Assembly: GCA_005787685.1 (NCBI GenBank)
Contig: SYAC01000034.1
Span: forward strand, 1-64,000
DNA length: 64,000 nt
Direction: 5' to 3'
Origin: Planctomycetia bacterium
GTDB taxonomy: Bacteria; Planctomycetota; Phycisphaerae; Phycisphaerales; SM1A02
Of this stretch, positions 7,497 through 61,841 are shown one piece after another (within the stretch, counting starts at the first letter, position 1; each line of letters begins with the position of its first letter). The notes beneath the pieces were generated by a model. It was not told where the DNA came from, made no database searches, and saw only the letters and a list, made by a program, of their open reading frames with translations. Position numbers and translations under genes: made by a program.

Positions 7497-9359
7497 TCAG
7501 CCGCCGATACTGGACGGATCAAAAGTTGCAGCTTGCGCGAATTTGGAAATTTCCATGGGAGTTGTGCGTCCTCGCAATATCTTAAGCTTGCCGTCGCCCA
7601 ACAAAGTGCGCATGCCGGAGCGGATTGCGGCGTCGCGAAGTTTGGAAATACCCGCGCGTTCAAACGCCAGATTGCGAATCTCCGAGTTCATCACCATCAT
7701 TTCATAAATGCCGCGGCGGCCGCGATAGCCCACGCCACCACACTCGGGGCATCCAACAGGCATCATGACCTTGTCTTTTTCTGAATCGTGAATATCCACC
7801 AAGCGCAAAGTCTTTGGATCAGGATCGGGATCGATTTTCTTGCATTTGTCGCACAAGATTCTGGCCAGGCGTTGACCCATGATGGCCTGAATACTGCTCG
7901 CAACCAAGAATGGTTTGACACCCATGTCCACCAAACGCGTGATGGCGCTGGGAGCGTCGTTGGTGTGCAGCGTGCTGAAGACCAAGTGGCCAGTGAGCGC
8001 GGCTTGAATGGCAATGTCAGCCACTTCGCGATCGCGAATTTCACCCACAAGAATAATATTGGGCGCCTGGCGCAACATGGATTTCAAAATGGAGGGGAAA
8101 GTCAGACCGATTTGTTCGCGCACCTGCACCTGATTGATGCCCTTGAAGTTGTATTCAACGGGGTCTTCGGCGGTGATAATTTTTTTATCCGGGCGGTTCA
8201 GCACCGCGAGCGCCGAATACAGCGTGGTGGTCTTGCCGCTACCCGTGGGGCCGGTGACCAGGAAAATGCCGTTGGGTTTTCGAATGACCTTGTTGAATGT
8301 GTCCAACATGTCCTGTTCAAGACCCAAGTTGAGCAAACCAATACGCACGCTGTCTGGACGCAAAATACGCAGCACCACGCTTTCGCCATTGGTGGCGGGA
8401 CATGTGCTCACTCGAAAGTCGACTTGGTCAATGACCTGCTTTTCCCTTTTGTCTTTTTCATCTATTTCCATGACTGGATTGTTGTTTGAATCCACCCTGG
8501 GCACGGCCATTTTAATGCGACCGTCTTGCGGAATGCGCCGCTCTGACATGTTTACCCCAGCCATTAACTTTAAGCGAGCCAATACGCCTGATTGGTTGGT
8601 CTTTGGAAGTTCTGAAATTTTCTCACACTCGCCGTCAATTCGATAGCGCACAAGCACGTTATCTTTGCGGGGTTCGAAATGAATATCACTGGCTCGGGCT
8701 AGAACACCTTTCAGAATAATTCCGTTGACCAGTTGAACCAAATACGAATCCGTGGATGCGTCTTGATCCATGGAACTTTTTTTACGGTCAATGGAGCCCT
8801 TGTTTCGGTCTAAACTCGCCTTGGCTCGGTCCAAAGAATTGTCCAAGGAACCGTTGGCTCGACTGATTAACTTGTCAAGGTCAATGCCGTCTGAGGATTT
8901 GTCGGCCTCAATAGGCTTGGCAGACTTGTTGCCTATTTCTAAAAACGCCTGCATTTGACGCTTGCTGGCCACCACGGTATCTAATTCATAATTGAGTCTA
9001 AATCGTAAATTGTCAAACAATTGCAAATCCATTGGGTCATGCACCAGGATTTTTAAGCGATTATTGTGAAGGGAGATTGGCAGCACCAAATGCTTGCGAA
9101 TGAGATCGCTTGCCATGAGAGATAAATTTATTTTTGCATTGTCCTCGGCTCGATCAAGGTTGAGAAACTCCATGCCAAATTGAGTCGCCAAGGCTTTGGA
9201 CACATCCTCCTCGTTGCAAAATTGAAGCTCTATGAATGCCTCACCAATTCTTTTGCCGCTTCCTTGGGCCAATTCTAAAGCCTTGGCAACCTGCTCGGCT
9301 GTGACCAAGTTTGCTTGTAATAAAATTTCTCCAAGTTTCAGTCTAATCTTTCGAGCCAC
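7497..9359 (-). CDS. pilB: PilB/GspE-family assembly ATPase (second copy) with repeat linker
   Basis: 620 residues from the GTG at 9359. This start is preferred to an ATG 14 codons upstream because AAGGAG (9366-9371) lies 6 bases before it and the family's N-terminal block begins at once (ARKIRLKLGEILLQANLVTA). The order is: MshEN-like domain to about residue 140; a hydrophilic linker with four near-identical seven-residue units (SLDRAKA, SLDRNKG, SIDRKKS, SMDQDAS); then the motor core with Walker A GPTGSGKTTTLYS, TAEDPVEYNF, ILVGEIRDREVA and STLHTNDAPSAITR, and a zinc site (LCDKCKK, GCPECGGVGYRG). The shared layout with the other PilB suggests ancient duplication. The two may serve different pili, or a pilus and a secretion system. 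Confidence 0.92.
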   Translation of the reverse strand: MARKIRLKLGEILLQANLVTAEQVAKALELAQGSGKRIGEAFIELQFCNEEDVSKALATQFGMEFLNLDRAEDNAKINLSLMASDLIRKHLVLPISLHNNRLKILVHDPMDLQLFDNLRFRLNYELDTVVASKRQMQAFLEIGNKSAKPIEADKSSDGIDLDKLISRANGSLDNSLDRAKASLDRNKGSIDRKKSSMDQDASTDSYLVQLVNGIILKGVLARASDIHFEPRKDNVLVRYRIDGECEKISELPKTNQSGVLARLKLMAGVNMSERRIPQDGRIKMAVPRVDSNNNPVMEIDEKDKREKQVIDQVDFRVSTCPATNGESVVLRILRPDSVRIGLLNLGLEQDMLDTFNKVIRKPNGIFLVTGPTGSGKTTTLYSALAVLNRPDKKIITAEDPVEYNFKGINQVQVREQIGLTFPSILKSMLRQAPNIILVGEIRDREVADIAIQAALTGHLVFSTLHTNDAPSAITRLVDMGVKPFLVASSIQAIMGQRLARILCDKCKKIDPDPDPKTLRLVDIHDSEKDKVMMPVGCPECGGVGYRGRRGIYEMMVMNSEIRNLAFERAGISKLRDAAIRSGMRTLLGDGKLKILRGRTTPMEISKFAQAATFDPSSIGG

Positions 9360-9365
9360 GCGAAT

Positions 9366-9371
9366 CTCCTT
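9366..9371 (-). promoter_or_regulatory. Ribosome-binding site deciding the start of the second pilB
   Basis: AAGGAG on the minus strand, 6 bases upstream of the GTG at 9359. The competing upstream ATG at 9401 has no comparable site. Confidence 0.7.
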
Positions 9372-9450
9372 CAAGCGAACAAAGAAATGAATGCAAGACA
9401 ATCAAACCGAGGGGTCGTAGTATGCAGAACCCGCAGGCAAGTGGCAACCC

Positions 9451-10140
9451 ATGAATGACACGAATACCACTAAACCGCAAAGTCCCACTCGGTGGTTGGT
9501 CGCCTTGGGACCCACCCACGAACCCATTGATGAGGTTCGATTTATTGGAAACCGATCGAGTGGACGCATGGGATTTGAAATAGCCAAGGCCGCTCAAGAA
9601 ACCGGCGCGCATGTGCGCGTTCTTGCTGGGCCCTGCCATCTTTCGCAAATAGATTCGTTGAATGATGTTGCGCGGTTCCAAAGCGCGGCCGACTTGCGCG
9701 CCTTATTGACAACAGATTGGCCTAATTTTGATGTTTTAATTATGGCCGCTGCCGTGGCGGATTGGCGCGTGGCGGGCGAAAAGTTGGCTGGAAAGCTTCG
9801 CCGCGAAACACCTGCGCCCGTGTTGCAATTGGAACCCGTGGCTGAAATTCTTGGAAATTTGCAAAGCCACGCCAATCAGTTTGTGGTTGGATTCGCCTTG
9901 GAGCCAATGGAGCAGATGATTGCCAGCGCGAGGCGAAAATTGATCGCCAAGAAAGCGGATTGCATTGTGGCAAATTCACTGCAAACACTGGACGGCGTGG
10001 AATCGGACGCGCGAATAGTGTGGCCCGATGGGCGCGTGGTTTCCCTTGATGCGCAGGGAGCATTTGCCCCCAAATCGGTAGTGGCGCGTTGGATTGTTCA
10101 GACCATTTCCCCCGCAATCTCACAAAAGTGCGTTCATTGA
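9451..10140 (+). CDS. coaB: Phosphopantothenate-cysteine ligase (CoaB domain, stand-alone)
   Basis: 229 residues matching only the C-terminal half of the usual CoaBC fusion. The nucleotide-binding loop is visible at the start as ALGPTHEPIDEVRFIGNRSS followed by GRMG, then HVRVLAGP and the AAAVADWRV motif near residue 105. The reaction joins 4'-phosphopantothenate and cysteine in CoA synthesis. No CoaC-type decarboxylase domain is present before or after it, so it must be encoded elsewhere. It is transcribed away from the pilB gene across a 91-base gap that probably holds both promoters. Stand-alone CoaB proteins are known in some bacteria, so this is unusual but not unique. Confidence 0.85.
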   Translation: MNDTNTTKPQSPTRWLVALGPTHEPIDEVRFIGNRSSGRMGFEIAKAAQETGAHVRVLAGPCHLSQIDSLNDVARFQSAADLRALLTTDWPNFDVLIMAAAVADWRVAGEKLAGKLRRETPAPVLQLEPVAEILGNLQSHANQFVVGFALEPMEQMIASARRKLIAKKADCIVANSLQTLDGVESDARIVWPDGRVVSLDAQGAFAPKSVVARWIVQTISPAISQKCVH

Positions 10141-12620: not shown

Positions 12621-12719
12621 ATTTTAGCTGACACCAAGAGCAGTTAATATGTTCTTACTTATATGACCAAATGTATGCAATATTTTTTGAATTTGTATGA
12701 ATTTGACCCAGCGCTTCAT

Positions 12720-12804
12720 GGGATCGTGGCGGAACAGCAGACGCAGCGGACTTAAAATCCGCAGTCAAGAAATTGACGTGTGGGTGCAACTCCCACCGGT
12801 CCCA
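12720..12804 (+). tRNA. tRNA-Leu (anticodon UAA)
   Basis: 85 bases. The acceptor stem pairs GGGATCG (12720-12726) with CGGTCCC (12797-12803), followed by discriminator A. The anticodon stem is GCGGA/TCCGC around the loop CTTAAAA, giving anticodon TAA. A long variable arm with stem TCAA/TTGA marks the class II shape expected for leucine. The T stem is GTGGG/CCCAC, but its loop reads TGCAACT, with G where nearly all tRNAs have T55 (pseudouridine). CCA is not encoded. Confidence 0.93.
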
Positions 12805-12869
12805 TTTTGCTTGAATACAAGTTCTATTCAAAAATTGATTGACATCAATTTCGGTTATTCTGTTTCTTG

Positions 12870-14648
12870 ATGGAAGAAAGACTAGAATTTCATAAACCTA
12901 GCAATCAGTCGCTTGATCAACCCTTGATTGTCTTGATTACCAATGAAATCTGGGCCGCGGACGCGCTCAGAATGGCGCTCACAAACAATCAAGCTCAACT
13001 TGAAATCATTCCCCGCAATGCCGAATCATTGGAGCGTGCAATTCGATTGGTCCCTACGGTGGTTGCTGTTGAAATTTCCGGTCTAGGTACCGAGGGCTTT
13101 GAATTACTGGGCGCTTTTGCTAGAGATGAAACCACCAAGGAAATTCCCTGTGTGGCCATGCTCCCCCTGCCTGATCCATTGAAACGAGCGGCGGCCTTCG
13201 CTTGCAATGTCGAAGATTGCCTAAGTCGGCTGAATGATTCGGATGAAATACGCACGCGAATATTGACGCTAGCCAAATTGGGAATTTCCAAAATGCGCGA
13301 ATGCGTATTAGATAAGGAAATTGTAGAGCTGCAAACGCGGCTGAAGGATAGAAGCCATTTGCAAACGGAGCGCGAACGACTGAATGCGGGGTTAATTCAG
13401 TTAGGCGCCAACGACAAGGACTTTCTACAAATACGATTAGATGGCTTGGTGAGAATCGGTTTGGAATTGAACAAGGTCCAAGACATTCACTTGTTGATGG
13501 ATCGTATTCTCAGCGAGGCGCGAAAATTGATTGGCGCCGACGCAGGCACCTTGTACAAACGCGAAAATGCAAGTCTTCGATTTGCGTACACGCAAAATGA
13601 CACCCTTGCCCGCCGTGGAGGATTGGGTGAACCACCAAGATTTTCAAGTCACATGCTTCCGGTCAGCGAAAATTCAATCGCGGGCTGGGTAAGCATAAGC
13701 GGTGAAGGTGTCAACATTGCAAATGCTTACACAATAGAACCGAGCAGCCCATTTCAATTTGACCAATCTTTCGACCGCAGTACCGGGTACAAGACACAAA
13801 GCGTGCTTGCGTTGCCGCTGCGCACAAGTTTGGGTCGTACCGTGGGCGTGCTGCAACTCATAAACGCCATAAACAGTGATGGCCGTAGCCGGCCACGGTT
13901 CTCCGAGACAGACCAAGCGCTTTTATCGCATTTTGCCAGCATGGCAACCGCGGCGATTGAGCGGAACCAATTGCACGAGAGTGTGATCAAGCGAATGTTG
14001 CACATGGCCGAATCGCACGATCCCATTGAAACTGCTCAACATGTTGAGCGCGTGGCAGGTATTGCAGGAGTTTTATTTGAAGAATGGGGGCATCGGCGCG
14101 GTTTGGGAGGTGTGTTATTCGAGCGCCAACGTGACCTCTTACGCTACGCCGCGCGCATGCATGATGTGGGCAAGGTCGGAGTGACAGATTCAATTTTAAA
14201 GAAGCCCGCAAAGCTGACCGCCGCTGAATTTAAAATAGCGCAACGCCATGTGCTCATTGGCGCCAGTTATTTTCAGGATGAACCAACCGAGTTTGACGAG
14301 TCATCGCTCGAGGTGCTTCTCAATCATCATGAAAAATGGAATGGCACTGGCTATCCAGGATATGTCCATTGTGATGGCTCTTCCATTCTTGATCCTGTGA
14401 CCAATCAACCCAAACTTGGTGGCAAAAGAGGCGATGAGATTCCTGTTTTCGCGCGGATTGTTTCGGTAGCTGATGTGTTTGACGCGCTTTCACACAAACG
14501 TTGCTACAAAGAAGCCTGGCCAGAACAACGCGTTCTTGACACGATGCGAGTTGAGTCGGGCAACCATTTTGATCCCGAACTAATTAGCATTTTCTTTGAA
14601 AAATTACCGTTGATTCGCCAGATTTGCGATTTGAATAAGGAAGTTTAA
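12870..14648 (+). CDS. Degenerate receiver-GAF-HD-GYP protein (putative c-di-GMP phosphodiesterase)
   Basis: 592 residues from the ATG at 12870 (a TTG just before it could also be used). Residues 15-130 look like a receiver fold (LIVLITNEIWAADAL) lacking the acidic pair; a coiled-coil linker follows; a GAF domain spans about 195-370 (ADAGTLYKRENASLRFAYTQ, SIAGWVSISGEGVNIANAY). The HD-GYP domain has H431-D432 in MHDVGKVGV, the following QRHVLIGA and NHHEKWNGTGYP, so all metal and signature residues are kept. About 15 extra residues (YVHCDGSSILDPVTNQPKLG) sit after GYP and before the EIPVFARIVSVADVFDAL block. No membrane segment. It lies 28 bases upstream of the cheW gene in the slot where Wsp operons have the receptor WspA. 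Confidence 0.88.
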   Translation: MEERLEFHKPSNQSLDQPLIVLITNEIWAADALRMALTNNQAQLEIIPRNAESLERAIRLVPTVVAVEISGLGTEGFELLGAFARDETTKEIPCVAMLPLPDPLKRAAAFACNVEDCLSRLNDSDEIRTRILTLAKLGISKMRECVLDKEIVELQTRLKDRSHLQTERERLNAGLIQLGANDKDFLQIRLDGLVRIGLELNKVQDIHLLMDRILSEARKLIGADAGTLYKRENASLRFAYTQNDTLARRGGLGEPPRFSSHMLPVSENSIAGWVSISGEGVNIANAYTIEPSSPFQFDQSFDRSTGYKTQSVLALPLRTSLGRTVGVLQLINAINSDGRSRPRFSETDQALLSHFASMATAAIERNQLHESVIKRMLHMAESHDPIETAQHVERVAGIAGVLFEEWGHRRGLGGVLFERQRDLLRYAARMHDVGKVGVTDSILKKPAKLTAAEFKIAQRHVLIGASYFQDEPTEFDESSLEVLLNHHEKWNGTGYPGYVHCDGSSILDPVTNQPKLGGKRGDEIPVFARIVSVADVFDALSHKRCYKEAWPEQRVLDTMRVESGNHFDPELISIFFEKLPLIRQICDLNKEV

Positions 14649-14676
14649 TCCTTGCAAAAAAGGGTATTCTATCATC

Positions 14677-15174
14677 ATGCGAACTCTGATTTGGACGGCT
14701 CACAATAATTTTTTTGCTATTGATGTCGCCCATATCCGTGAAGTTTGCCCCGTGGTTTCAGCCCAACCTTTGCCAGCCAGTCCCGCATGGATGCTTGGCT
14801 TGTTTGATTATCACGGGGCGTTCGTTCCTTTGCTTGACGCAGGCATTCTGACGGGGAAAATAGCCATTGAACCAAAAGTTGGTTCGCGAACAATTTTGAT
14901 GGAGGTGCCTATGGACGCCAACGATCCAACCTGCAGCACTTCGATATTTGGTTTACGCGTGGAACAAGTCATTGGGCTGCGGGACTTGAATTACAACGGC
15001 GCCTGGAATCCAAGCGCGGGATTGCCCGAGTTTGAACATTTGCGAGAGGTGTTGAATATCGCAGAGGGTCGCGCTCAAGTATTTGACGCCAGACTTATAG
15101 CCATGCAACATGAACGGATTCTGCAAGGCTCAAGCGCGGTCGCCACGAAGAATGATCGGCGGCTTGGGTCGTGA
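14677..15174 (+). CDS. cheW: CheW-like coupling protein (WspB position)
   Basis: 165 residues forming one CheW domain: an N-terminal strand pair (FFAIDVAHIREVCP), the glycine-rich block MLGLFDYHGAFVPLLDAG and a C-terminal block ending in the VEQVIGLRDL region. By family it bridges a chemoreceptor and the kinase CheA. It is the first of two CheW genes in the operon, matching wspB, and its stop overlaps the GTG of the cheR gene (GTGA). No receptor gene is seen in the window, so its upstream partner is unknown. Confidence 0.88.
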   Translation: MRTLIWTAHNNFFAIDVAHIREVCPVVSAQPLPASPAWMLGLFDYHGAFVPLLDAGILTGKIAIEPKVGSRTILMEVPMDANDPTCSTSIFGLRVEQVIGLRDLNYNGAWNPSAGLPEFEHLREVLNIAEGRAQVFDARLIAMQHERILQGSSAVATKNDRRLGS

Positions 15175-16433
15175 ACGAATTGTCAATGTGGCTGTCCGCC
15201 AACACATCGCTTGAACCCGTGGTGAATAAGTTTGGTGAATTGTTCGCCCGTGAGCGCATGCGATTGCTTGGCGACAAGACCATCGCTGAATATGTAGCGC
15301 GCTTGAATCGTGATTCCAAAGAGGCCATGAATTTGTATCAACATTTGTCGCCCCCAGAAACATGGCTCTTTCGCTATGTGGCGTCGTTTGAGGTGCTGCG
15401 CGAAGAACTTCAAAAGCGCGATCGGTCACAAATGATTCATGTGGCCAGTCTTGGTTGCGCCACTGGGTCGGAGCCATTTTCTATTGCAGCAACAGCACTG
15501 TCCTGCGGTCTTACTCCCAGCCACATTCGCATACTTGCCTTGGATTACAGCGATGATCACTTGGCGCATACTCGCACTGGCCGCGCCAGCGCGCTTGCGC
15601 AACGGACTCCCATTCCACAGTGGGCGGCCAACTGGTTGCATCCCACACCACAAGGTCAATTGGAATTGGACGCGCAAGGCATGGCCATGATTGACTACCA
15701 ACGCGGTGATTTGTCAAAATGGAAACCTGATCGCGCATTTGATTTTGTGTTTTGCCGCAATGTCGCCATTTATTTGAACGAACAAAGCAAAAGACGCCTT
15801 GGACGAATGCTGGATGAAACAATCAAGCCAAACGGGCTGGTATTCCTTGGACATGCTGATTCCACCATTTTCACTGGCACCAACATGCGTCGAAGTGAGA
15901 TGGATCATGCTTTTGCATTTTGCAAACATGAGAAAGCCAATGACAAACTCAATCCGCTAGCACTTGGTCTTTCGCAAGACCCATGGGTTGCACCATTTAT
16001 TCAATCGAGTTCGATCGCAGGCAAGCCCGCTATTGCGGCCGTTCATAAAATAATTTCCACAACTTCAACGCGGCGAACGGACAGCGCCCCTGCCTCTAGT
16101 GCTGGCGTCATGGCTGCGAGGGCGTCAATGGATGTGTTCACACGGGCGCAAATTGCCGCCGACAGCGGTCATTTGGTCGAGGCCGAAAAATTATTGCTGG
16201 CCTATTTAGCCCAAGAACCAACGGCAATTCAGGGCCATGCGTTGTTTGGTTGCGTTCAAATGGCGCAAGATAAATACGCGGATGCCCAAAGAAGTTTTAC
16301 GAAGGTCGTGTACCTTGATCCCTTGAACGGACTTGCACTTTTATCATTGGCGGCCATTGCCGAATTGGGTGGTGATTCCAAAGGTGCGCAACGATTGCGC
16401 GACCGCGCCGCGCGGACTGTTGTGGAGAAATGA
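15171..16433 (+). CDS. cheR: CheR-type methyltransferase with C-terminal TPR (WspC-like)
   Basis: 420 residues starting at a GTG that overlaps the preceding stop. An N-terminal CheR all-alpha domain holds the LSPPETWLFRYVASF block typical of WspC-type CheR; the SAM-binding motif is VASLGCATGSEPFSIAATA near residue 90; FDFVFCRNVAIYLNE is the post-motif block near residue 190. A linker of about 60 residues leads to two or three tetratricopeptide units (residues 320-415: AQIAADSGHLVEAEKLLLAY, ALFGCVQMAQDKYADAQRSF). It would methylate receptor glutamates. CheR with C-terminal TPR is the WspC architecture, and the position between two cheW genes also matches wspC. Confidence 0.9.
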   Translation: MNELSMWLSANTSLEPVVNKFGELFARERMRLLGDKTIAEYVARLNRDSKEAMNLYQHLSPPETWLFRYVASFEVLREELQKRDRSQMIHVASLGCATGSEPFSIAATALSCGLTPSHIRILALDYSDDHLAHTRTGRASALAQRTPIPQWAANWLHPTPQGQLELDAQGMAMIDYQRGDLSKWKPDRAFDFVFCRNVAIYLNEQSKRRLGRMLDETIKPNGLVFLGHADSTIFTGTNMRRSEMDHAFAFCKHEKANDKLNPLALGLSQDPWVAPFIQSSSIAGKPAIAAVHKIISTTSTRRTDSAPASSAGVMAARASMDVFTRAQIAADSGHLVEAEKLLLAYLAQEPTAIQGHALFGCVQMAQDKYADAQRSFTKVVYLDPLNGLALLSLAAIAELGGDSKGAQRLRDRAARTVVEK

Positions 16434-17017
16434 TCTTGACTCAATCCCCGTCCGACAATCCTCCCGAGCAAAAAATGGGATTGACCCAACTTTTGTCGCG
16501 TCCAATTCCTGACGCAAGTTTGCAGCAGAACACCTCCGCCTTAGCTCAAGAACGCGCGCAATCCCTGCATGAGCTAGACACCATTCTGGTTTTTCGAATT
16601 GGCGGCGAACGCTTCGCTTTGCCCGCCCATAGCGTTCAGAATATTTTTCCAGCCACCACGGTTCGCAAAGTTCCGCATAGAACTCGTCCGCCATTTCGGG
16701 GCCTGTGTTGCTATGAAGGCGCAATCTTGTTGACTGGCTTGCTGCATGTGGTGCTTGACATGCCAATGGATGAATCCGCGAATGTGAAACTGCGACGCAT
16801 GATTGTCATAGGCACCGAGGAATCCAGTTGGGCTTTTGAAGTGGACGCGGTGGATTGCATCCGCAAAGTAGATCCATCGAAATTTCGAAACGCCCCTGCC
16901 ACTATTCCAAAAACCATTGATTCCTGCACGAATTGCATTATTCCAATGGATGACGGCGACGCGGTGCTGCTGAATCCTTTGGCTATTCAAGCCGTCATGG
17001 AAAGGTCTATTCAATGA
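16430..17017 (+). CDS. cheW: CheW-like coupling protein (WspD position)
   Basis: 195 residues. An N-terminal extension of about 50 residues is followed by a CheW domain: VFRIGGERFALPAHSVQNIF, then HRTRPPFRGLCCYEGAILL and a C-terminal SSWAFEVDAVDCIRKVDPSK block. It overlaps cheR and cheA by ATGA at either end, so these proteins should be made in fixed ratios. This is the second CheW of the operon and corresponds to wspD. The N-terminal extension resembles that of WspD-type proteins in length, but its function is not known. Confidence 0.87.
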   Translation: MILTQSPSDNPPEQKMGLTQLLSRPIPDASLQQNTSALAQERAQSLHELDTILVFRIGGERFALPAHSVQNIFPATTVRKVPHRTRPPFRGLCCYEGAILLTGLLHVVLDMPMDESANVKLRRMIVIGTEESSWAFEVDAVDCIRKVDPSKFRNAPATIPKTIDSCTNCIIPMDDGDAVLLNPLAIQAVMERSIQ

Positions 17018-19371
17018 GCGGGTTTGGTGGGTTTGATTTATTTGAGTTGTTCCGCGCAGAAATTCTGGCGCACGGCGCCGCATTGAACGAGGGCTTGCTG
17101 CGTTTGGAGCAAAACCCTGCGGATGTGCAACCTATTGAAAGTTTGATGCGCGCCGCGCATTCCATCAAAGGCGCCTCGCGCGTGATTAATTTAGATTTGG
17201 CGGTTGACCTGGCCCATCACATGGAAGATTGCCTTGTCAACATTCAAAAGAAAATAGAAGTGTGCGGATCGGAGCGCGTAGAACAATTGCTTGGTGGCAC
17301 GGATATCTTGACGCAACTTGGCACAATGCAGGAGGCCGATTTGCCCGCATGGAAGAACGCCAACGCCGTTGATATCAACGCCTTGGTGACGGCGTTGTCG
17401 GCGCCGGTACAGGCCATTCCTGTGACGACCAAATCCGATAAGACCGTCGCAATGGTTGAGCCAACGGAATCTATGGTGGAAGTTGAACAGCCTGCGACGG
17501 ACATGTTGGTCACACCGAGCGTTGCGCATGCCTCCACGCTGAGTGCGCCCACGCCAGGCACGGGTTCCTGGCAACAGCCCTTGAAAACCTCCGATCATGC
17601 GCCCCAGACCGCGAAAGCGGTTGCCACCCCCGCCACGACGGAAGTGCGAACGGTGCGGGTCAATGCGGAAAATTTGGATCGCATGATGCGCTTGGCAGGT
17701 GAAAGCATGGTGGAGGGAAAACGATTTCCGCAAATACGACAAGGCTTGCGCGAGATGAAATCGCAACTGCGCTCCGCCCGCGACTCTTTTGAATCCGCTG
17801 TGAAGCGACGCGACGGCGCCGAAATTTCAAATTCATTGGCGCGCTTGGCCAGCATTGAGGGAAGTTTGACAAGCCACGCTGAATTTTTAGAAAATGTGTT
17901 TCGGCGCACTGAAGAAGTTGGAACCAAGTTGTATCACGAGGTCATTGGAAGCCGCATGCGCCCCTTTGGCGATGTCACCGCTGGCCACCCGCGAATGATT
18001 CGCGATCTCGCCAAGAAACTTGGCAAGAAAGTTCAATTTGATATTGAGGGAGTCAATGTCTCTGTGGATCGTGATGTCCTTGCACGCTTAGAAGCGCCCT
18101 TGAATCATATGTTGCGCAACGCAATTGATCATGGTTTTGAAAGTCCAGAGGATCGGCGAACTGCTGGAAAGTCCGAGACCGCGCATTTGCGTTTACAAGC
18201 TCGCCACCACGCCGGCATGTTGGAAGTGCGCATTCGCGATGACGGCCGTGGCATTGATCCCGAACGCGTGCGCGCCAAAGTTGTAGAAAAGCGCTTGCAA
18301 TCAGCCGATATTGCGAGTGGCTTGAACAAGGCCGAACTGCTGGAGTTTTTATTCCTGCCGGGCTTCTCCACCGCCTCACAAGTAACGGAAGTTTCGGGAC
18401 GTGGGGTTGGCTTGGATGTGGTGAGTCAAACGGTTCGAGAAATTGGCGGAACCGTTCGTTTGGAATCACAACCCGGACAAGGCTCTGAATTTATTTTATC
18501 GCTTCCGATCACGCTCAGTGTTATCCGCGCCGTCACCGTACGCGTGGCCGGCGAAGGCTACGCGTTTCCACTCGCTCGCATTGAGCGTATTGTGAAAGTG
18601 GACTCCACATCGCTGAAGAGCATGGAAGGCAGACTTACATTCGAGTTTGATGAGCGATCAATTGGCTTGCTACGCGCCAGTGAATTGTTTGGTTTGTCCA
18701 ACACGGCCCACATGAACAATTCTTCCGTGGTGAATGTTGTCGTGCTTGGCGACATAGATAATCCGTGTGGATTGGTGGTTGATCAATTCATGGGCGAGCA
18801 AGATTTAGTGGTGCGAAAACTTGATCCACGACTTGGAAAAACTCCATTTATCAGTTCGGCTGCGATTGACGATGAGGGTCAGGCGATTTTGATCATGGAT
18901 GTGGAAGATCTGCTCATTGGCATTCGCCGTGGCCTGGCCGAGGGCGGAGTACGGGGCTTGGACATTTCATCATTACGCCAGAATTCAGGCGGAAGAAAGC
19001 GCGTTTTGGTGGTGGATGACTCCATTACCGTTCGCGAAGTGGAGCGCCAAATGTTGGCGCGCTTGGGCTATGAAGTGGAGACCGCGGTGGATGGGGTTGA
19101 TGGATTTGCTCAACTCAAAGCGGGCCGATTTGATTTGCTGGTGACCGATGTTGATATGCCGCGTATGAATGGCATTGAGTTTGTCAAGGCGTTGCGTCGC
19201 GATCCGCGTTTCGCCACGCTGCCGGTTGCGATTGTGAGTTACAAGGACCGCGCCGAAGACCGCACCGCTGGAATGGAAGCGGGAGCAAACGCCTATCTCA
19301 CCAAGGGTTCTTTCCAGGATCAATCGTTCATTCAAACCATTACGGACTTGATAGGCGAGGCGCAACGGTGA
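17014..19371 (+). CDS. cheA: CheA-type hybrid histidine kinase with C-terminal receiver (WspE-like)
   Basis: 785 residues. The HPt domain has the phospho-acceptor H49 in LMRAAHSIKGASRVINLDLA; the HxxxDCLVNIQ region and one single HPt domain recall WspE. A Pro/Thr-rich linker (about 135-210) precedes the dimerisation domain. The ATPase core has N box LNHMLRNAIDHGFESPEDR, G1 IRDDGRGIDPERV and G2 EVSGRGVGLDVVSQTV. A CheW-like P5 domain spans about 500-650. A receiver follows (VLVVDDSITVRE, acceptor in LLVTDVDMPRMNG). By family it autophosphorylates, passes phosphate to CheB and the output regulator, and its own receiver may be a phosphate sink. There is no separate P2 domain. Confidence 0.93.
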   Translation: MSGFGGFDLFELFRAEILAHGAALNEGLLRLEQNPADVQPIESLMRAAHSIKGASRVINLDLAVDLAHHMEDCLVNIQKKIEVCGSERVEQLLGGTDILTQLGTMQEADLPAWKNANAVDINALVTALSAPVQAIPVTTKSDKTVAMVEPTESMVEVEQPATDMLVTPSVAHASTLSAPTPGTGSWQQPLKTSDHAPQTAKAVATPATTEVRTVRVNAENLDRMMRLAGESMVEGKRFPQIRQGLREMKSQLRSARDSFESAVKRRDGAEISNSLARLASIEGSLTSHAEFLENVFRRTEEVGTKLYHEVIGSRMRPFGDVTAGHPRMIRDLAKKLGKKVQFDIEGVNVSVDRDVLARLEAPLNHMLRNAIDHGFESPEDRRTAGKSETAHLRLQARHHAGMLEVRIRDDGRGIDPERVRAKVVEKRLQSADIASGLNKAELLEFLFLPGFSTASQVTEVSGRGVGLDVVSQTVREIGGTVRLESQPGQGSEFILSLPITLSVIRAVTVRVAGEGYAFPLARIERIVKVDSTSLKSMEGRLTFEFDERSIGLLRASELFGLSNTAHMNNSSVVNVVVLGDIDNPCGLVVDQFMGEQDLVVRKLDPRLGKTPFISSAAIDDEGQAILIMDVEDLLIGIRRGLAEGGVRGLDISSLRQNSGGRKRVLVVDDSITVREVERQMLARLGYEVETAVDGVDGFAQLKAGRFDLLVTDVDMPRMNGIEFVKALRRDPRFATLPVAIVSYKDRAEDRTAGMEAGANAYLTKGSFQDQSFIQTITDLIGEAQR

Positions 19372-20399
19372 AAATTGCTGTTGTGAATGATTTACAAATT
19401 GCGCTGCATGCGTTGACGCATATTGTGAAAGGCATTCCAGATGTCACATTGGCGTGGACGGCCTTGGATGGCGTGGAAGCCGTGAACAAGTGCGCCTTGG
19501 ACAAGCCAGATTTAATTTTGATGGACTTGATCATGCCCAACATGGACGGCGTTGAGGCCACTCGCCAAATCATGCGTAAGACTCCCTGCGCCATTCTTGT
19601 GGTCACGGCAACCATTGAAGGAAACGCCAGCCGCGTATTCGAGGCCCTTGGCGCGGGCGCGCTGGACGCGGTTGAAACTCCGCGCTTTGAGCAGTCTCTT
19701 GATGGAACGGGCGGCGATCGCTTAAGGGCAAAGATTTCGCAAATCCGCCGCAACGAGCGCATCACGGTCAAACCGACATTTGATCCCATTGTCACCAAGT
19801 TGCACGGCAACCAGCACATACGCCGCTCGCCCGTTGTGTTACTTGGTGCAAGTACCGGCGGACCACAAGCTCTGGCAACCGTGCTGCGATCTTTCAAGCA
19901 ACCACTTGAATTTGCCGTGGTGATTGTCCAGCATTTGGACACCGCGTTTGTTCCAGGATTTCGAAATTGGTTAAGCCACGAGACAGGCATGATGGTTCGC
20001 GCGGCTGATCCTGGCGAACTCGCCGTGGCTGGAACCATCTCTATTGCTTCCTCCAATAGGCACTTGCAATTCACTTCAGGTGGATCTTTTATTGAGAGTG
20101 ATTCTCCCGCCGAGGCACTGCATAAGCCAAGCGTGGACTCACTCATGCTCAGCGCCGCTCGCACTCAACTCTTTGGAGTAGCCGCCTTGCTGACTGGCAT
20201 GGGGCGAGATGGCGCCGCAGGATTGCTCGCGCTTAAAAAATCGGGTTGGGCAACCATTGTGCAAGACTCCGCCACCAGCGTGGTCTGGGGAATGCCTGGC
20301 GCCGCCGTGCAATGCCTTGCCGCGGAGCAAGTACTTCCCATTGATCAAATTGGTCAAGCCATTCAAACCGCACTTATCCGAAAGCCAAAACATGTCTAG
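19368..20399 (+). CDS. cheB: CheB-type methylesterase (WspF-like)
   Basis: 343 residues, GTG start overlapping cheA. The receiver begins MKIAVVNDLQ: an Asn-Asp pair (N7, D8) in place of two acids, as I recall for WspF, with acceptor D53 in LILMDLIMPNMDGVEA. The methylesterase domain has the catalytic triad S162 (GASTGGPQAL), H189 (VIVQHLD) and D281 (TGMGRDGAAG). By family it removes methyl groups from receptors when phosphorylated and resets signalling. The stop overlaps the start of the next gene by 8 bases. Its presence with CheR implies an adapting receptor somewhere in the genome. Confidence 0.92.
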   Translation: MKIAVVNDLQIALHALTHIVKGIPDVTLAWTALDGVEAVNKCALDKPDLILMDLIMPNMDGVEATRQIMRKTPCAILVVTATIEGNASRVFEALGAGALDAVETPRFEQSLDGTGGDRLRAKISQIRRNERITVKPTFDPIVTKLHGNQHIRRSPVVLLGASTGGPQALATVLRSFKQPLEFAVVIVQHLDTAFVPGFRNWLSHETGMMVRAADPGELAVAGTISIASSNRHLQFTSGGSFIESDSPAEALHKPSVDSLMLSAARTQLFGVAALLTGMGRDGAAGLLALKKSGWATIVQDSATSVVWGMPGAAVQCLAAEQVLPIDQIGQAIQTALIRKPKHV

Positions 20400-21582
20400 C
20401 GCAACCCCAGTCCATTCTTTAGACACATTCCAAACCATTGTTCTGCTGGTGGATGATCAGGCCATTATTGCGGGCGCAGTCCACAAAATGTTGCAATCCC
20501 AGCCGACTTGGCAGTTTCACTATTGCAACGATGGAACCAAAGCCGTGCAGATGGCTCTGTCCATTCAGCCAACAATCATCCTGCAAGATTTAGTCATGCC
20601 AGATGTCGACGGCTTGACATTAGTGGCGGAGTATCGCAAGCATGCCCCGTTGGCGCAGACGCCCTTAGTTGTGCTTTCTTCACGCGAAGAAGCCGTGACC
20701 AAGGCAAAGGCGTTTGAATTGGGTGCCAATGATTATTTGGTGAAATTGCCTGATCCAGTTGAGCTGATCGCACGCATCAAGCATCACTCCGATGGGTTCA
20801 AGGCCGCCATGGAACGCAACGCCGCATACGCCGCGCTTGCGGCCAGCGAAAAACATTTGCAAGAAGAAGCCAAGCGCGCCGCGGAATATGTGCGTTCACT
20901 ATTGCCGCAGCCGTTGACCGAAGGCGCGGCCACCACCAAGTGGAAATTTGTTCCCAGCGAAAGCTTGGGTGGCGACGCGTTTGGTTACCACTGGCTTGAT
21001 GAATCTCGCTTGGCGATGTATTTGCTGGATGTGTGCGGTCATGGAATTGGTCCAGCGTTGCTGGGCGTGAGCGCCATGAACACAATTCGTGGCGGCGGCA
21101 TTCCGGGCCGCGACATGCGCGATCCCGCAGCCGTGCTTGAAGGCTTGAACGATCTCTATCCAATGGACCAGCACAATGACATGTTTTTCACGCTGTGGTA
21201 CGGCATTCTTGATGTGGATGCCAGCACCATTCAATGGTGTGGCGGCGGCCATCCGCCCGCGTTATTGGTGGATCCCGATGGCTCCATAACGCAACTGGCT
21301 TCGCAAGGCCTGATGATTGGCGCGGCAACTGGAATTCCATATGACTCAAGTCAGGTGATCTTGAAACCCAAATCTAAATTGTTTGTGTACAGCGACGGCA
21401 TATTTGAAATCACCAAACCGGACAAGAGCATGACTTCGCTGGAGGACTACATTGCGAAGGTTGGGCAACTGCACGCCAAATCGGACGCGTTGGAACACAT
21501 GGTTTTGTGGGGACAAGCCGCCCAAGGTGGTCCGCAATTTGTGGACGATGTGAGTTTACTTGAGGTGACATTCAATCCTTGA
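20392..21582 (+). CDS. WspR-like receiver fused to PP2C/SpoIIE phosphatase
   Basis: 396 residues from the ATG at 20392, which overlaps cheB by 8 bases; longer in-frame starts lie inside cheB and lack family sequence. Receiver: acidic pair D21-D22 (VLLVDDQAIIAGAV), acceptor D66 (IILQDLVMPDVDGLTLV), lysine K118 (GANDYLVKLPDPVELIARIK). This closely resembles the WspR receiver. A coiled-coil stalk (about 135-170) leads to a SpoIIE/RsbU-type phosphatase: LPQPL, GGDAFGY (D195), DVCGHGIGPALLG (D213) and FVDDVSLLEV at the end, so the metal-binding aspartates are kept. There is no GGDEF domain. By family the output would dephosphorylate a STAS-type anti-sigma antagonist. Confidence 0.9.
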   Translation: MSSATPVHSLDTFQTIVLLVDDQAIIAGAVHKMLQSQPTWQFHYCNDGTKAVQMALSIQPTIILQDLVMPDVDGLTLVAEYRKHAPLAQTPLVVLSSREEAVTKAKAFELGANDYLVKLPDPVELIARIKHHSDGFKAAMERNAAYAALAASEKHLQEEAKRAAEYVRSLLPQPLTEGAATTKWKFVPSESLGGDAFGYHWLDESRLAMYLLDVCGHGIGPALLGVSAMNTIRGGGIPGRDMRDPAAVLEGLNDLYPMDQHNDMFFTLWYGILDVDASTIQWCGGGHPPALLVDPDGSITQLASQGLMIGAATGIPYDSSQVILKPKSKLFVYSDGIFEITKPDKSMTSLEDYIAKVGQLHAKSDALEHMVLWGQAAQGGPQFVDDVSLLEVTFNP

Positions 21583-21597
21583 GCAATCGCGTGCGCC

Positions 21598-21631
21598 GAA
21601 TTGGCGTGTGAAGTCACGCCAATTCTTTTTT
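21598..21631 (+). terminator. Intrinsic terminator of the Wsp-like operon
   Basis: A perfect 11-base-pair stem, GAATTGGCGTG with CACGCCAATTC, around a 6-base loop, followed by six T. It begins 16 bases after the phosphatase stop. It makes a GTG at 21608, inside the stem, an unlikely start for the next gene. Confidence 0.9.
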
Positions 21632-21640
21632 GGCAATGAG

Positions 21641-22642
21641 GTGTCCCGCGCCTTGCACACACAACATTTCGCCATGCACTTCGTAGCCATCACAACACTG
21701 ATGGCTTTCATTGTTGGATGCGCTTCGGGGCCGCACGCGTTCACCCAAGAGCGATTTCACTTTCAGGAAGTGCACATGGGCGCCAAGGTGAGCCTGACCA
21801 TGTACGCCGACAATGAACCTGCCGCCGCAACCGCGGCGCGCGCCGCATACAACGAAATCGCCGCTTGGGACTTGGCGCTCAGCGATTATTTGCCCGATTC
21901 GGAAATTTGTGCGCTGTCAACCAAAGCCCAACACGCCACAGCGGTGCGGCCGCGACTGGCAAAAGCGCTGCAAATGTCGATTGAATTCAACCATTCCTCG
22001 AATGGAGTATTTGATTGCGCCCTGGGGCAATTGACCAAGGTATGGCGCGCGGCGTTTCGTGAGCAACGCATGCCAAGCGACGCGTCCGTACAGTGGGCGT
22101 TTGATCATTCCGGCCTGTCGCATGTCACATGGGATGAAGCCACCCACTCGGTGGCATTTGATGGCCAGGAAATTCAACTTGACTTTGGCGCAATTGGCCA
22201 AGGCCTAGCCGCCGACGCCGCCATGCAAGTGCTGCGAAGTCATCATATTTCTTGCGCGCTCATTGATATCAGCGGCGACATTCTTGCCAGCGACGCCCCG
22301 CCGCAATCCAACGGTTGGGTTGTGCGTGTCGAGCCTGAATTTGCCAGTGAGCAAGTACGCGAAGTAAAACTGTCGAATCAGGCATTGTGCGTCAGTGGCG
22401 ATCGCGGCCAACCTGGGCGCATTGATGGAAAAATACTTTCACACATTCTCAATCCAAAGAATGGCTATCCCATTGGGTGGCCACGCCAATCCGTGGTGAT
22501 TGCGCAAGACGCCACCACGGCCGACGCAATTGCAACCATTGCGTGCATCATGAGTGTTGATGAACTGAAGGCGTTCGAGCAGAAATATCCGCGTGTCCAC
22601 ATTTCAATAGAGCGTTTGCCAGAACAGGACGACGCACATTGA
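21641..22642 (+). CDS. apbE: FAD:protein FMN transferase (ApbE family), lipoprotein
   Basis: 333 residues from the GTG at 21641; an ATG at 21674 is equally possible, while an upstream GTG lies in the terminator. A signal peptide ends in a lipobox-like MAFIVGC/AS. ApbE blocks: QLDFGAIGQGLAADAAMQVL (FAD site), CALIDISGDILAS, GKILSHILNPKNGYPIG and the metal-binding QDATTADAIATIAC. By family it attaches FMN to a threonine of periplasmic flavoproteins such as Nqr or Rnf subunits, none of which is in this window. It converges on the Gfo/Idh/MocA gene with a 19-base gap. Confidence 0.88.
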   Translation: MSRALHTQHFAMHFVAITTLMAFIVGCASGPHAFTQERFHFQEVHMGAKVSLTMYADNEPAAATAARAAYNEIAAWDLALSDYLPDSEICALSTKAQHATAVRPRLAKALQMSIEFNHSSNGVFDCALGQLTKVWRAAFREQRMPSDASVQWAFDHSGLSHVTWDEATHSVAFDGQEIQLDFGAIGQGLAADAAMQVLRSHHISCALIDISGDILASDAPPQSNGWVVRVEPEFASEQVREVKLSNQALCVSGDRGQPGRIDGKILSHILNPKNGYPIGWPRQSVVIAQDATTADAIATIACIMSVDELKAFEQKYPRVHISIERLPEQDDAH

Positions 22643-44430: not shown

Positions 44431-44760
44431 TCAATCCGCGGGCACAATTGTCATGGAAAAAACACCGTCTAAGCGCGACCTTTGAATCATGGGCGCAACC
44501 GATCCGTTGTCAAGGCAAATCAACTTCACCTTGGATCCATGCGAGCGCCGCTGCGATGCCAGCATGACAAGCGCGCCCACCGCCGGCGAATTGAAAGAGG
44601 TCACCTTGCGAAGATCAATTTCTATCGGGCTCGTCCCTTGCGTGGAAAGACTGTAGAGAACTGCCTCGAACATTGGAAATGTGCGAATGTCCACCACGCC
44701 ACAGACGATCAGCAATTCAGGGGATGTGGTCGATTGAAGTTCAATGTTCAGTGTGCTCAT
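44431..44760 (-). CDS. STAS-domain anti-sigma-factor antagonist
   Basis: 109 residues from the ATG at 44760, which overlaps the stop of the von Willebrand gene upstream (ATGA). The STAS fold is given by LIVCGVVDIRTFPMFEAVLY, IEIDLRKVTSFNSPAVGALV and a C-terminal DGVFSMTIVP. A serine stands at or near the usual phosphorylation site (SFNSPAVG). By family it would bind an anti-sigma kinase when unphosphorylated. No kinase is found in the window. Its tie to a MoxR/Bat cluster is unusual. Confidence 0.85.
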   Translation of the reverse strand: MSTLNIELQSTTSPELLIVCGVVDIRTFPMFEAVLYSLSTQGTSPIEIDLRKVTSFNSPAVGALVMLASQRRSHGSKVKLICLDNGSVAPMIQRSRLDGVFSMTIVPAD

Positions 44761-46745
44761 GGTTGACCTGTGCTTTGATAATAGAGGAACCACTCCAACA
44801 GGAGGAGCAACAACACCAACAGCACAATCAGCGGCCAAATGGCAAGAGTTGCAAAGCCAATGGATTGGGGTTGAAGTTGAGCGCCGGGGATGTTCACTTG
44901 CTCGGCGGCGGCGACATTGCATTCCGCGGCGTCGGTCAAATTGACCGCCACGGCGCGTGTTTGTTGCTTGCCATTTGGGTTGAGATATTCCACCCTGTAG
45001 ACGCCAGCTGTGCGCAGTGGTCCAAAGACAATTTCGCCGTCAATCGGATTTTGCGCAACGCGATCTCCATTGGGCGTGATCACCTCAACCTGCGTGCAAC
45101 CACGCGCCACGCGCATGCGAATGGTCGCCCCCGGTTCGAGCGATTCACTGGTGACCGCGCTTCCAAGCGCGCCCAAGAATTCAATGCATTGCCATGTGAA
45201 ATTCACAAAACTTCGTTGAAAGGGCCAGTTGGAATCCATTGGAAGAAACGCGACATACACCACCGATGCGTTGCCCACGCGTCCCGAAACGATCAATGGA
45301 CCTTTGGAGCCTTCAAGTAACGCGGTCCAATCGCTGTTGGGCGCGATGGCCGCGGCCTGATCCACAATCAGATCGGAGAATTGACTTTGCGCCATCGCTT
45401 TGTGGTCGCTCTTCCAAGTGCGAATGGCTTGTCTTGGCTGCTGTCCATACTCGTTCAAGCTTGCAATGGCAGGCGGCTTTCCAAAAATCAACCATCGACC
45501 TCCAGTCAATGTGGGTACATCGCAATCAACTGACACAACCACATCAAATGAATCGGTCCAATTTGTGTCCGCCACGACACGCTTGGCAAAATCTTGACAG
45601 GATATTTGCTCAAGCAAGACGCCGGGCACACTGTTCAGCAGCGACTCCAAGGCCGAGTCATTGCCCGCCAACAGGAGGCGCAAGGATTGCTGCTCTTGAA
45701 TGGCGATGACCGCGCGATTGTCCGTGGCAAACGCGTCCTCCGGTAATAACGACGCGCTGAGCACGCCCGAGGTGGAAATCTTGAAAGGGGCGAAAGAAAT
45801 TTTTTGTTCGCCAGGCATTTGCGTGGCGCCTTTGCCGCTGGAACCTGGCAGCGTGAATGGTTCGGCAGAGCTGGCGATCAGCGTTCCATTACCACGCACT
45901 TGGACTTCGCGTTGCACGGCCGTTTCCCCAAAATTTCGCAGCGCCACAAATGCGTCGGCCAATGTTGGATCATCGTTGCGACGTTCCGCGCCCGCGGCGC
46001 TCATGCCCTGATTTTGGGTTACCGAATTGCCACAGCGAATCCATGACAGCGTTTCATTTTTTCGCAGCGACAACTGCCCAAGGTCTGAGCAATTTCCATC
46101 GCTGATGAGTTGTATGACAAGCGAAGTGGTGTTCGCCTGCGTATTTTCAGAAGGCGATACGCTAGCTTGTTCGGATGTAAATGCGCGGGCCAGAGTGATC
46201 GCCGGCGCCAACAGCGTGATCTGATCAGTTGATTCAATGGATTCAATGGCTTCACGAATGCGCCCGTAGTTGGTGGTGAATGGAATGCGCACGGATGCGT
46301 CCTGTCCGAATGCAATCACCATGATCTCGGGCGGACTGGAAGCGAAGAACCCCCCGCTCTGCCAAATCTCAACTTGCGCAATAGCCAATCGCTTGGCTTG
46401 ATCCAGGCGGGTTCCCTTGTCGGGCGCGTCCAAGGTTTGCATGCTGGCGGATTGATCAATCAACAACACCATGCGGCTACTGGGGCGTGTCCAACCCTGG
46501 AGCACGGGCTGCATAAGCGCCGCGGCCAACAGCAGCAAAAGCAAGCATTGCAGCAGAAAAAGCGGCGAAAGACGCAATCGTTGCATCAACGCGTTGGCGC
46601 GCACATCCTCTGTTTTTGATTTCCACAAGAGCGTGCTTGAAATGTCGCGACGCGTTCGGCGTAATTTTAAGATGTACAAAACCAGCAACAACGGAACAAC
46701 AATCAACGCCGCGACGATACCTATGAAAGGAGTGAGCAAAGTCAT
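44757..46745 (-). CDS. BatA-type protein with von Willebrand factor A domain
   Basis: 662 residues. The N-terminal aerotolerance/BatA region has two membrane segments (IGIVAALIVVPLLLVLYILK and LFLLQCLLLLLLAAALM) around the RRDISSTLLWKSKT block. A VWA domain follows with the MIDAS motif VLLIDQSASMQTL near residue 95. After a long beta-rich region (about 280-630) a final membrane helix (FATLAIWPLIVLLVLLLLLL) ends the protein. By family such proteins work with MoxR ATPases in envelope stress and protein maturation. ATGA overlaps at both ends. Confidence 0.88.
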   Translation of the reverse strand: MTLLTPFIGIVAALIVVPLLLVLYILKLRRTRRDISSTLLWKSKTEDVRANALMQRLRLSPLFLLQCLLLLLLAAALMQPVLQGWTRPSSRMVLLIDQSASMQTLDAPDKGTRLDQAKRLAIAQVEIWQSGGFFASSPPEIMVIAFGQDASVRIPFTTNYGRIREAIESIESTDQITLLAPAITLARAFTSEQASVSPSENTQANTTSLVIQLISDGNCSDLGQLSLRKNETLSWIRCGNSVTQNQGMSAAGAERRNDDPTLADAFVALRNFGETAVQREVQVRGNGTLIASSAEPFTLPGSSGKGATQMPGEQKISFAPFKISTSGVLSASLLPEDAFATDNRAVIAIQEQQSLRLLLAGNDSALESLLNSVPGVLLEQISCQDFAKRVVADTNWTDSFDVVVSVDCDVPTLTGGRWLIFGKPPAIASLNEYGQQPRQAIRTWKSDHKAMAQSQFSDLIVDQAAAIAPNSDWTALLEGSKGPLIVSGRVGNASVVYVAFLPMDSNWPFQRSFVNFTWQCIEFLGALGSAVTSESLEPGATIRMRVARGCTQVEVITPNGDRVAQNPIDGEIVFGPLRTAGVYRVEYLNPNGKQQTRAVAVNLTDAAECNVAAAEQVNIPGAQLQPQSIGFATLAIWPLIVLLVLLLLLLEWFLYYQSTGQP

Positions 46746-61493: not shown

Positions 61494-61841
61494 ATGCAGA
61501 CCTACATCAGCGAGCGGGATGGTTTTATTCTGGTGGTGGCCGCCGATGGCGGACTCAACCGTGGCACCGCATCACAACTGATCGAGGAAATCACCACCCA
61601 TGTGGAAAATGGCGCCACCCAAGTTGTGGTGGACTGCGTCAAACTTGAAATTTTGTCCAGCATGGGTCTGGGTGCCCTGCTTCAAATACACAACAAGCTG
61701 AAAAGGCATGGCGCGCAAGTGCGTTTATGTGGACTTCGCAGCATGATGGTGCAAGCCATCCAGTTGTCGCGTTTGGACAAGATTTTCCAGGTGTATCCGG
61801 ATGTGAACGCTGCCAAATTATCATTTCGCCCTCTTTCCTAG
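61494..61841 (+). CDS. STAS-domain anti-sigma-factor antagonist (second copy)
   Basis: 115 residues, 3 bases after kdsD. STAS blocks are ILVVAADGGLNRGTASQLIE, VVVDCVKLEILSSMGLGALL (phosphorylatable Ser pair) and VRLCGLRSMMVQAIQLSRLD, ending KIFQVYPDVNAA. By family it acts in partner switching with an anti-sigma kinase and a PP2C phosphatase. The REC-PP2C protein at 20392-21582 is a candidate phosphatase, but this is inference. The 165 bases after it hold no gene that I can support. Confidence 0.85.
   Translation: MQTYISERDGFILVVAADGGLNRGTASQLIEEITTHVENGATQVVVDCVKLEILSSMGLGALLQIHNKLKRHGAQVRLCGLRSMMVQAIQLSRLDKIFQVYPDVNAAKLSFRPLS

Follow-up and report, generated by a model that had tools for sequence, protein, structure and literature searches.

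The DNA analyzed here was a window of 64,000 nucleotides (positions 1 to 64,000 of contig SYAC01000034.1, GenBank assembly GCA_005787685.1) from a Planctomycetia bacterium of the Phycisphaerales (SM1A02). On the + strand, between positions 12870 and 21582, it carries seven co-directional open reading frames (ORFs), which encode a protein here called X, a CheW, a CheR, a second CheW, a CheA, a CheB, and a response regulator, REC-PP2C, in which a receiver is joined to a phosphatase domain (Table 1). Wsp, a surface-sensing system, is a textbook example of a chemosensory pathway that makes cyclic di-GMP (c-di-GMP). The initial annotation of the locus described it as having the gene order wspABCDEFR. 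Genes B to F were found in that order and a WspR-type receiver was encoded last, but slot A was occupied by an HD-GYP protein and not by a methyl-accepting chemotaxis protein (MCP). The Wsp letters given to the slots are those that we take to correspond.

Table 1. Features of the chemosensory operon (HMM, hidden Markov model)
Feature	Position	Strand	Evidence
X: degenerate Wsp-type receiver, GAF, HD-GYP; wspA position	12870..14648	+	Pfam GAF, HD, HD_5; receiver HMM 38 bits
CheW, WspB position	14677..15174	+	Pfam CheW 3.8e-12
CheR methyltransferase, weak TPR tail, WspC position	15171..16433	+	Pfam CheR 3.8e-29; TPR_2 7e-5, below cut-off
CheW, WspD position	16430..17017	+	Pfam CheW 5.8e-14
CheA-REC hybrid kinase, WspE-like, single Hpt	17014..19371	+	Pfam; kinase-box alignment; tree
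CheB methylesterase, WspF position	19368..20399	+	Pfam; NCBIfam PRK12555.1, 365 bits against a cut-off of 342
Output regulator: WspR-type receiver, helical linker, SpoIIE/PP2C phosphatase	20392..21582	+	Pfam; PDB matches 3bre, 3i5a; invariant residues; AlphaFold2 model
Terminator-like hairpin with T6, 3' of the last gene	21598..21625	+	consensus scan only

All seven ORFs were present as annotated, with overlaps of 4 or 8 bases from the first cheW on. The listed ORF of the REC-PP2C gene starts at 20209, and the alternative ATG at 20392 gives an 8-base overlap with the stop of cheB. The other four junctions from cheW onward are 4-base overlaps, and the gap between X and cheW is 28 bp. The seven genes are presumably co-transcribed as an operon. 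A search of planctomycete genomes for the gene order, which the annotation had called for, showed that CheW-CheR-CheW-CheA-CheB-REC-PP2C recurs in relatives with CheA identity down to 45%, so the order is not due to chance.

The domains of CheA were determined with Pfam. The single Hpt domain and the receiver that had been reported were both found, together with dimerisation, HATPase, and CheW domains, and the receiver was C-terminal. The Hpt His49 and the kinase boxes were invariant in 18 CheA sequences. A CheA tree of 86 rows, among them a few duplicate genomes, was made by a quick method with the Shimodaira-Hasegawa-like approximate likelihood ratio test (SH-aLRT) as the only support. The window CheA fell in a clade of 66 rows (SH-aLRT 100, stem 1.22), which includes the CheAs of Wsp-order clusters that end in GGDEF, from Azoarcus, two Mesorhizobium plasmids, and the metagenome bins L138 and L160. 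The CheA of E. coli, a ChpA-type protein, the Phaeobacter CheA, and the other planctomycete CheAs in the tree were outside this clade; "ChpA-type" and "canonical" are labels that we presume to fit the tree rows. The window CheA was 39-42% identical over 99% of its length to the CheAs of three plasmid-borne GGDEF clusters (Azoarcus sp. KH32C and the two Mesorhizobium plasmids). Beyond the 17 close planctomycete CheAs, the best of the others from planctomycetes were 31-32% identical near full length, and up to 40% in the kinase part only.

CheB opens with VKIAVVNDLQ and thus contains the VVNDLQ motif that had been noted. Its receiver fell together with the CheB receivers from two Wsp clusters of the GGDEF type (support 99, only 4 CheB rows in the tree). 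The TPR tail claimed for CheR gave a weak TPR_2 match below the cut-off (23.1 bits, cut-off 27). The trees of the CheA, CheB, and receiver parts, which had been proposed as a check, placed all three with Wsp parts (SH-aLRT 90 for the output receiver, described next), and this supports assigning CheA and the receivers of CheB and of the output protein to the Wsp lineage, as judged from sequence.

The receiver of the last gene had been described as WspR-like. Its top PDB sequence matches were the solved WspR structures 3bre and 3i5a (146 and 144 bits); RssB followed with 105 bits across receiver and phosphatase, and the next receiver scored 59 bits. A receiver tree of 180 rows and 119 columns, made by the same quick method and again with SH-aLRT only, contained a clade of 125 rows (SH-aLRT 90) with 109 receivers fused to PP2C, 5 fused to GGDEF, 7 fused to HD-GYP (one genome being included twice), and 4 others, namely two on class III cyclases, one on a histidine kinase, and one fragment (L166). 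Convergent similarity of the receiver was rejected on the basis of this tree and of the distance between the WspR scores and that of the next receiver-only match.

Pfam gave the architecture REC-SpoIIE, which bears out the annotation of a SpoIIE-type phosphatase end instead of GGDEF. In an alignment of 17 sequences, including that of the window, the DD, D, and K of the receiver and the GGD, DVxGHG, SDG, and DD of the phosphatase were invariant. The metal-binding aspartates of the phosphatase, on which the annotation had made its reading depend, were therefore kept in all 17. The AlphaFold2 model (predicted local distance difference test score, pLDDT, 93.9; predicted template modeling score, pTM, 0.72) had a single long helix (112-160) between the receiver and the PP2C domain, and its best solved fold match was P. 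aeruginosa RssB. Between 5 GGDEF and 28 PP2C versions of the protein, identity was 70% at the receiver end, 40% over the next 15 residues, and 19% beyond, and therefore the domain swap lies in the helical linker. Such a drop would be expected for a swap at a coiled-coil joint, the mechanism proposed in PMC12143880 (papers are cited here for the parts of their text that were available).

The PP2C domains formed one discrete subfamily, 37 of the 43 rows in the tree falling together with a support of 99, although inner branches were weakly supported. With the PP2C profile, 110 of 116 matches scored at least 234 bits and the next 102, the profile having been built from this family and most loci having been chosen by it. 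One fusion therefore travels with the cluster, and several independent PP2C fusions were rejected because the domains form one clade. The core of the operon is thus Wsp-derived, but the system is neither a WspR nor a WspH system, because the output is SpoIIE/PP2C, with no GGDEF or histidine kinase, and because slot A holds no MCP.

Protein X, which occupies slot A, was examined by Pfam, alignment, and modeling. It is not an MCP, its Pfam domains being GAF and an HD domain of the HD-GYP type. In the AlphaFold2 model, which was of moderate quality (mean pLDDT 74, pTM 0.43), the N-terminus was a (beta-alpha)5 fold with pLDDT mostly about 80-91 in the receiver. This receiver fell inside the Wsp receiver clade. 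In an alignment of six X sequences it lacked both the acidic pair and the Lys, and its phosphoacceptor Asp was replaced by Glu; only the homolog in L219, another genome of the family, had a complete receiver. The HDxGK and HHE..GYP motifs were present in all six, and X is a putative c-di-GMP phosphodiesterase of the HD-GYP type.

An MCP occupied slot A in 13 of the 16 nearest loci. The exceptions were G155, which has X like the window, G161, with none in 6.9 kb upstream, and G102, where the contig ends. At L099 a homolog of X (44% over 590 aa) lies upstream of an MCP and the remaining operon. The window genome gave four MCP matches, two on contig C35 and one each on C1 and C53, of which one was readable only as a fragment. 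The match on C53 (7825-8332 in the window genome, G000) is broken by a frame change or stop close to the contig end. The four MCPs clustered with those of Wsp-type clusters (support 96, with just three outside MCPs in the tree), and the second MCP of C35 (C35b) was 41% identical over 695 aa, nearly full length, to the slot-A MCP of L099. This C35 MCP has a PDC sensor and a HAMP match below cut-off, and a WspA-like membrane receptor is present only in trans. A relocation of the receptor gene out of the operon would explain this most simply. The CheW profile search of the window genome, which is 91% complete, found no CheW domain beyond the three of the operon, and therefore showed no other CheA or CheW; FliM/N had no match in it either. 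For these reasons the MCPs encoded elsewhere probably feed this one CheA. A flagellar chemotaxis system was rejected on the lack of FliM/N in this 91% complete genome and on the position of CheA outside the E. coli CheA clade.

The distribution of the cluster was determined in two surveys. The counts that start from CheA refer to Planctomycetota samples only (298 genomes of the class and 392 of the phylum). REC-PP2C was present at all 17 Wsp-clade CheA loci of the class sample; it was downstream of CheB at 16 of them, with a REC-HD-GYP gene between at two, and divergent at one. In the phylum sample 12 of 14 further Wsp-like CheA loci had REC-PP2C; only L140 and L144 of these 14 are in the CheA tree. 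The cluster was found in 14 of the 21 genomes sampled from the family of the window.

The second survey covered 80 named loci, the best 80 of 578 confirmed candidates with REC-PP2C as query, and they give no output frequencies because they were chosen with that query. At least six of them (L088, L096, L115, L161, L140, and L144) are also in the other survey. Many of the loci are metagenome bins, the names of which may be wrong; for example, the CheAs of L150 and L158 are nearly identical and the bins are named as two different phyla. CheB was directly upstream of REC-PP2C at 47 of the 80 loci, which belong to ten named phyla (no phylum is given for three of the loci), and the complete order from MCP to PP2C was seen at 25 of those 47. 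CheB, CheR, and MCP genes accompany REC-PP2C at L123. Two further loci, L089 (7624-9111) and L117 (8338-9798), are not among the 47 only because a gene for a class III adenylyl/guanylyl cyclase with a Wsp-type receiver separates CheB from REC-PP2C. In two gammaproteobacterial bins, L138 and L160, a complete Wsp cluster with REC-GGDEF as its last gene has a divergent REC-PP2C gene next to it, with a STAS gene in addition at L160. Complete GGDEF-ending clusters of Wsp order are carried by Mesorhizobium plasmids of the Alphaproteobacteria (L084, pMLb, and L085, 3919-12319). It is conceivable, though we think it rather improbable, that the WspR receiver with the start of the stalk is a natural exchange cassette that drives PP2C, GGDEF, HD-GYP, class III cyclase, or histidine kinase outputs in one type of operon, that Wsp occurs mainly, and occurred earlier, in the PP2C form, which is spread over ten or more phyla, and that the diguanylate cyclase form is later and mainly proteobacterial.

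The flanks of the operon were also inspected. A tRNA-Leu (TAA) gene (12719-12805) lies immediately 5' of it, and a gene for an ApbE-type FAD:protein FMN transferase (21608-22642) lies 3' of it. The promoter scan found nothing above chance (6 sites, 7.1 expected). The terminator scan gave 17 sites against 14.3 expected, and the one after the last gene has the longest stem, of 11 pairs. The true start of the ApbE gene is probably later than listed, because this stem sits at the listed start. ApbE was rejected as an eighth gene of the operon on account of the stem between them and because, in the loci scanned (L047-L082), it is beside the operon only in G155 and G102.

We searched the named loci for the genes of a partner switch, STAS and RsbW-like HATPase_c_2 genes. 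One or both adjoin REC-PP2C at 5 of the 80 loci, namely both at L091, L108, and L163, the HATPase gene at L106, and the STAS gene at L160. Pfam agreed for all seven of these genes that were submitted to it, which are all but the STAS gene of L091. Since only a few sequences went into the STAS and HATPase profiles, the counts are lower bounds. Not included in the five were L167, where a HATPase gene overlaps the 5' end of the MCP gene, at the operon's far end; L145, with a weak HATPase match after CheB; and L199. At L199 a 502-aa ORF with a HATPase-like match (8091-9599) adjoins and is convergent with the REC-PP2C gene of a planctomycete Wsp-type cluster. On a Rhizobium jaguaris plasmid (L086, 9788-11630) a phosphatase of the same PP2C subfamily, without a detected receiver, is encoded convergently with HATPase_c_2 and STAS genes, and no Che gene was seen in the 20.7 kb read. 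Another link between chemosensing and partner switching was seen at L081 (244-11452) in the class of the window, where a different chemosensory cluster has REC-PP2C, HATPase_c_2, and STAS genes beside CheA. The window genome has two STAS/HATPase pairs, on contigs C24 and C56 and not linked to the operon, and further STAS matches. Two STAS-domain genes, at 61494-61841 (+) and 44431-44922 (-), lie in the window away from the operon. The linked genes at five loci fit partner switching, which is our best guess for the output of the pathway.

From the parts, their order and families, the active-site residues, the kinship of the receivers, and the distribution in the samples searched, all of which are read from sequence, we propose that the operon probably encodes a Wsp-derived, non-motility chemosensory pathway with a REC-PP2C partner-switch output and an HD-GYP second arm. 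WspA-type chemoreceptors encoded elsewhere would control the CheA of the operon with the two CheWs, and CheR and CheB would adapt the receptors. We infer that the phosphate of CheA goes to the receiver Asp of REC-PP2C, this receiver being of the WspR type. The phosphorylated receiver would act through the helical linker on the PP2C domain, as in WspR and RssB, the sign of this regulation being presumed. PP2C would then dephosphorylate a phospho-Ser/Thr STAS protein, the presumed target, and in this way, together with an RsbW-like kinase, throw a partner switch. The slot-A HD-GYP protein, in which the Wsp-type receiver has degenerated, would be the second arm and probably lowers c-di-GMP under GAF control.

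Several results weigh against this proposal. Neither STAS nor RsbW-like genes were seen around the operon in the window or at the 16 nearest loci, as far as these were read, except at L060, where a STAS gene lies about 1.1 kb upstream of the MCP gene. The STAS/HATPase pairs of the window genome are not close to the family linked to REC-PP2C (at most 32% identity among the HATPases). The HATPase on C24, an unlinked candidate, occurs in 38 of 41 genomes of the bacterial family, including five without Wsp; since it is nearly universal there, the search of the window genome yielded no Wsp-specific partner. The gap in the 91% complete genome could hold a missing piece. Two of the 14 further loci of the phylum sample have other outputs, a histidine kinase with a Wsp-type receiver at L204 and an NtrC-type protein with another receiver at L209. 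Among the best 20 listed matches in the plasmid collection, full-length relatives of REC-PP2C were at most 29% identical, so that the family is represented among them only by a phosphatase-only match of 43% in Rhizobium jaguaris. Finally, Che genes are missing at 17 of the 80 loci found with REC-PP2C, in some cases because the contig ends there.

The annotation had concluded that the pathway controls partner switching rather than c-di-GMP synthesis. The STAS and HATPase_c_2 neighbors fit the first half of this statement, but "rather than c-di-GMP" is too strong because an HD-GYP protein opens the operon, and REC-HD-GYP proteins occur in relatives. They have an intact Wsp-type receiver and are encoded between CheB and REC-PP2C at G237, G285, and the named locus L152. 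The receivers of the HD-GYP and PP2C proteins at these loci form one six-row clade (support 99), as if one receiver had been copied and then given a new output domain. Homologs of X (E <= 1e-60) were found in all 14 Wsp-bearing genomes of the family sample and in 2 of the 7 without Wsp (Fisher p 0.001, uncorrected for kinship), several of them distant (33-41% identical), and the window genome has four GGDEF matches. The pathway may therefore still serve c-di-GMP: the partner switch would act on a diguanylate cyclase, the HD-GYP protein of slot A would degrade c-di-GMP, and PP2C would be an indirect route to the classical Wsp output. Partner switches can act on diguanylate cyclases, and Pseudomonas offers SiaABC-SiaD and HsbR-HsbA-HsbD as precedents (PMC7647112). 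However, the operon showed no gene for a diguanylate cyclase, direct control of X by CheA is unlikely since the X receiver lacks the acidic pair, Asp, and Lys, and in G197, G228, and G267 the best homolog of X is on a different contig from the Wsp cluster. We regard this alternative as a serious possibility, though not the one that we favor.

A second alternative is that the output goes to a sigma factor, with PP2C freeing an RsbW-bound sigma factor in a switch of the general-stress type, as has been proposed for Che1, CrsR/CrsA, and RpoS in Shewanella (PMC9855816). The ancestral clusters of the F7 class, which contain anti-sigma antagonists and a serine phosphatase (PMC7184735), point the same way, as do L091, L108, and L163, where both partner-switch genes adjoin a REC-PP2C gene of the same family. 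However, visual inspection of the ORFs listed next to the pairs on C24 and C56 revealed no recognizable sigma factor (no dedicated search of the genome for sigma genes was made), and we consider this outcome doubtful. It is very unlikely that REC-PP2C is a mere neighbor whose receiver is fed by another kinase, the output of CheA being its own receiver, CheB, or an unlinked CheY: the loci without a Che gene, of which L092, L102, L105, and L146 have about 9-10 kb of flank on both sides, would allow it, but nearly all loci selected by CheA carry REC-PP2C, its receiver belongs with WspR receivers, and its gene overlaps cheB in the window.

The proposed REC-PP2C pathway was compared with known systems. 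It shares with the Wsp system of Pseudomonas and relatives (WspA-F, WspR) the B-C-D-E-F order, a CheA with one Hpt and a C-terminal receiver, and a WspR-type receiver last; it differs in having PP2C for GGDEF, an HD-GYP protein for the slot-A MCP, and a host in the Planctomycetota. The WspH system of Burkholderia likewise keeps the Wsp core and the WspR receiver and changes the output domain, but its output is a histidine kinase and the gene has moved to the 5' end (PMC8552884). According to the available text of the same paper, a survey of 794 clusters found Wsp in beta- and gammaproteobacteria only, and with WspR or WspH only; the Mesorhizobium plasmid clusters already break this limit. WspE-WspRF has been reported in freshwater planctomycetes (PMC6461901).

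Among ACF-class clusters with CheR-TPR, response regulators that may end in a 2C-type phosphatase or a nucleotidyl cyclase were tallied in 2012 (PMC3447774). Neither "Planctomyc" nor "PP2C" occurs in the main text of that paper, and WspR-type receivers or linked STAS/RsbW genes are not shown in it as far as its available text goes. P. aeruginosa RssB and RsbU-type PPM phosphatases (3eq2, 3f7a; PMC12143880) have the same fold of receiver, helical linker, and PP2C, but the score of the window receiver with WspR (146 bits) exceeds that of the whole protein with RssB (105 bits), and the protein sits in a chemosensory operon. Shewanella Che1 with CrsR/CrsA is a chemosensory operon with a linked partner switch, but it is of the F7 class, has its own CheY, and is not of the Wsp type (PMC9855816). 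Together with PMC7184735, that paper connects other chemosensory classes to partner switches. In the parts seen of the openly licensed literature searched, no description was found of a REC-PP2C protein with a WspR-type receiver in a cluster of Wsp order. PP2C outputs in CheR-TPR clusters were thus already known, and what is new here is a well-defined output swap and its wide range. In Planctomycetota, and in other phyla as well, the same Wsp core with the same receiver works with a protein phosphatase, either by itself or accompanied by domains of the c-di-GMP-degrading, diguanylate cyclase, or class III cyclase type, and would link surface or chemical sensing to partner switching. It has been proposed that coiled-coil linkers allow receivers to be exchanged among PPM phosphatases, GGDEF proteins, and kinases (PMC12143880); the present family looks like a natural case of such exchange, and the Wsp-type clusters offer a natural test of the proposal.

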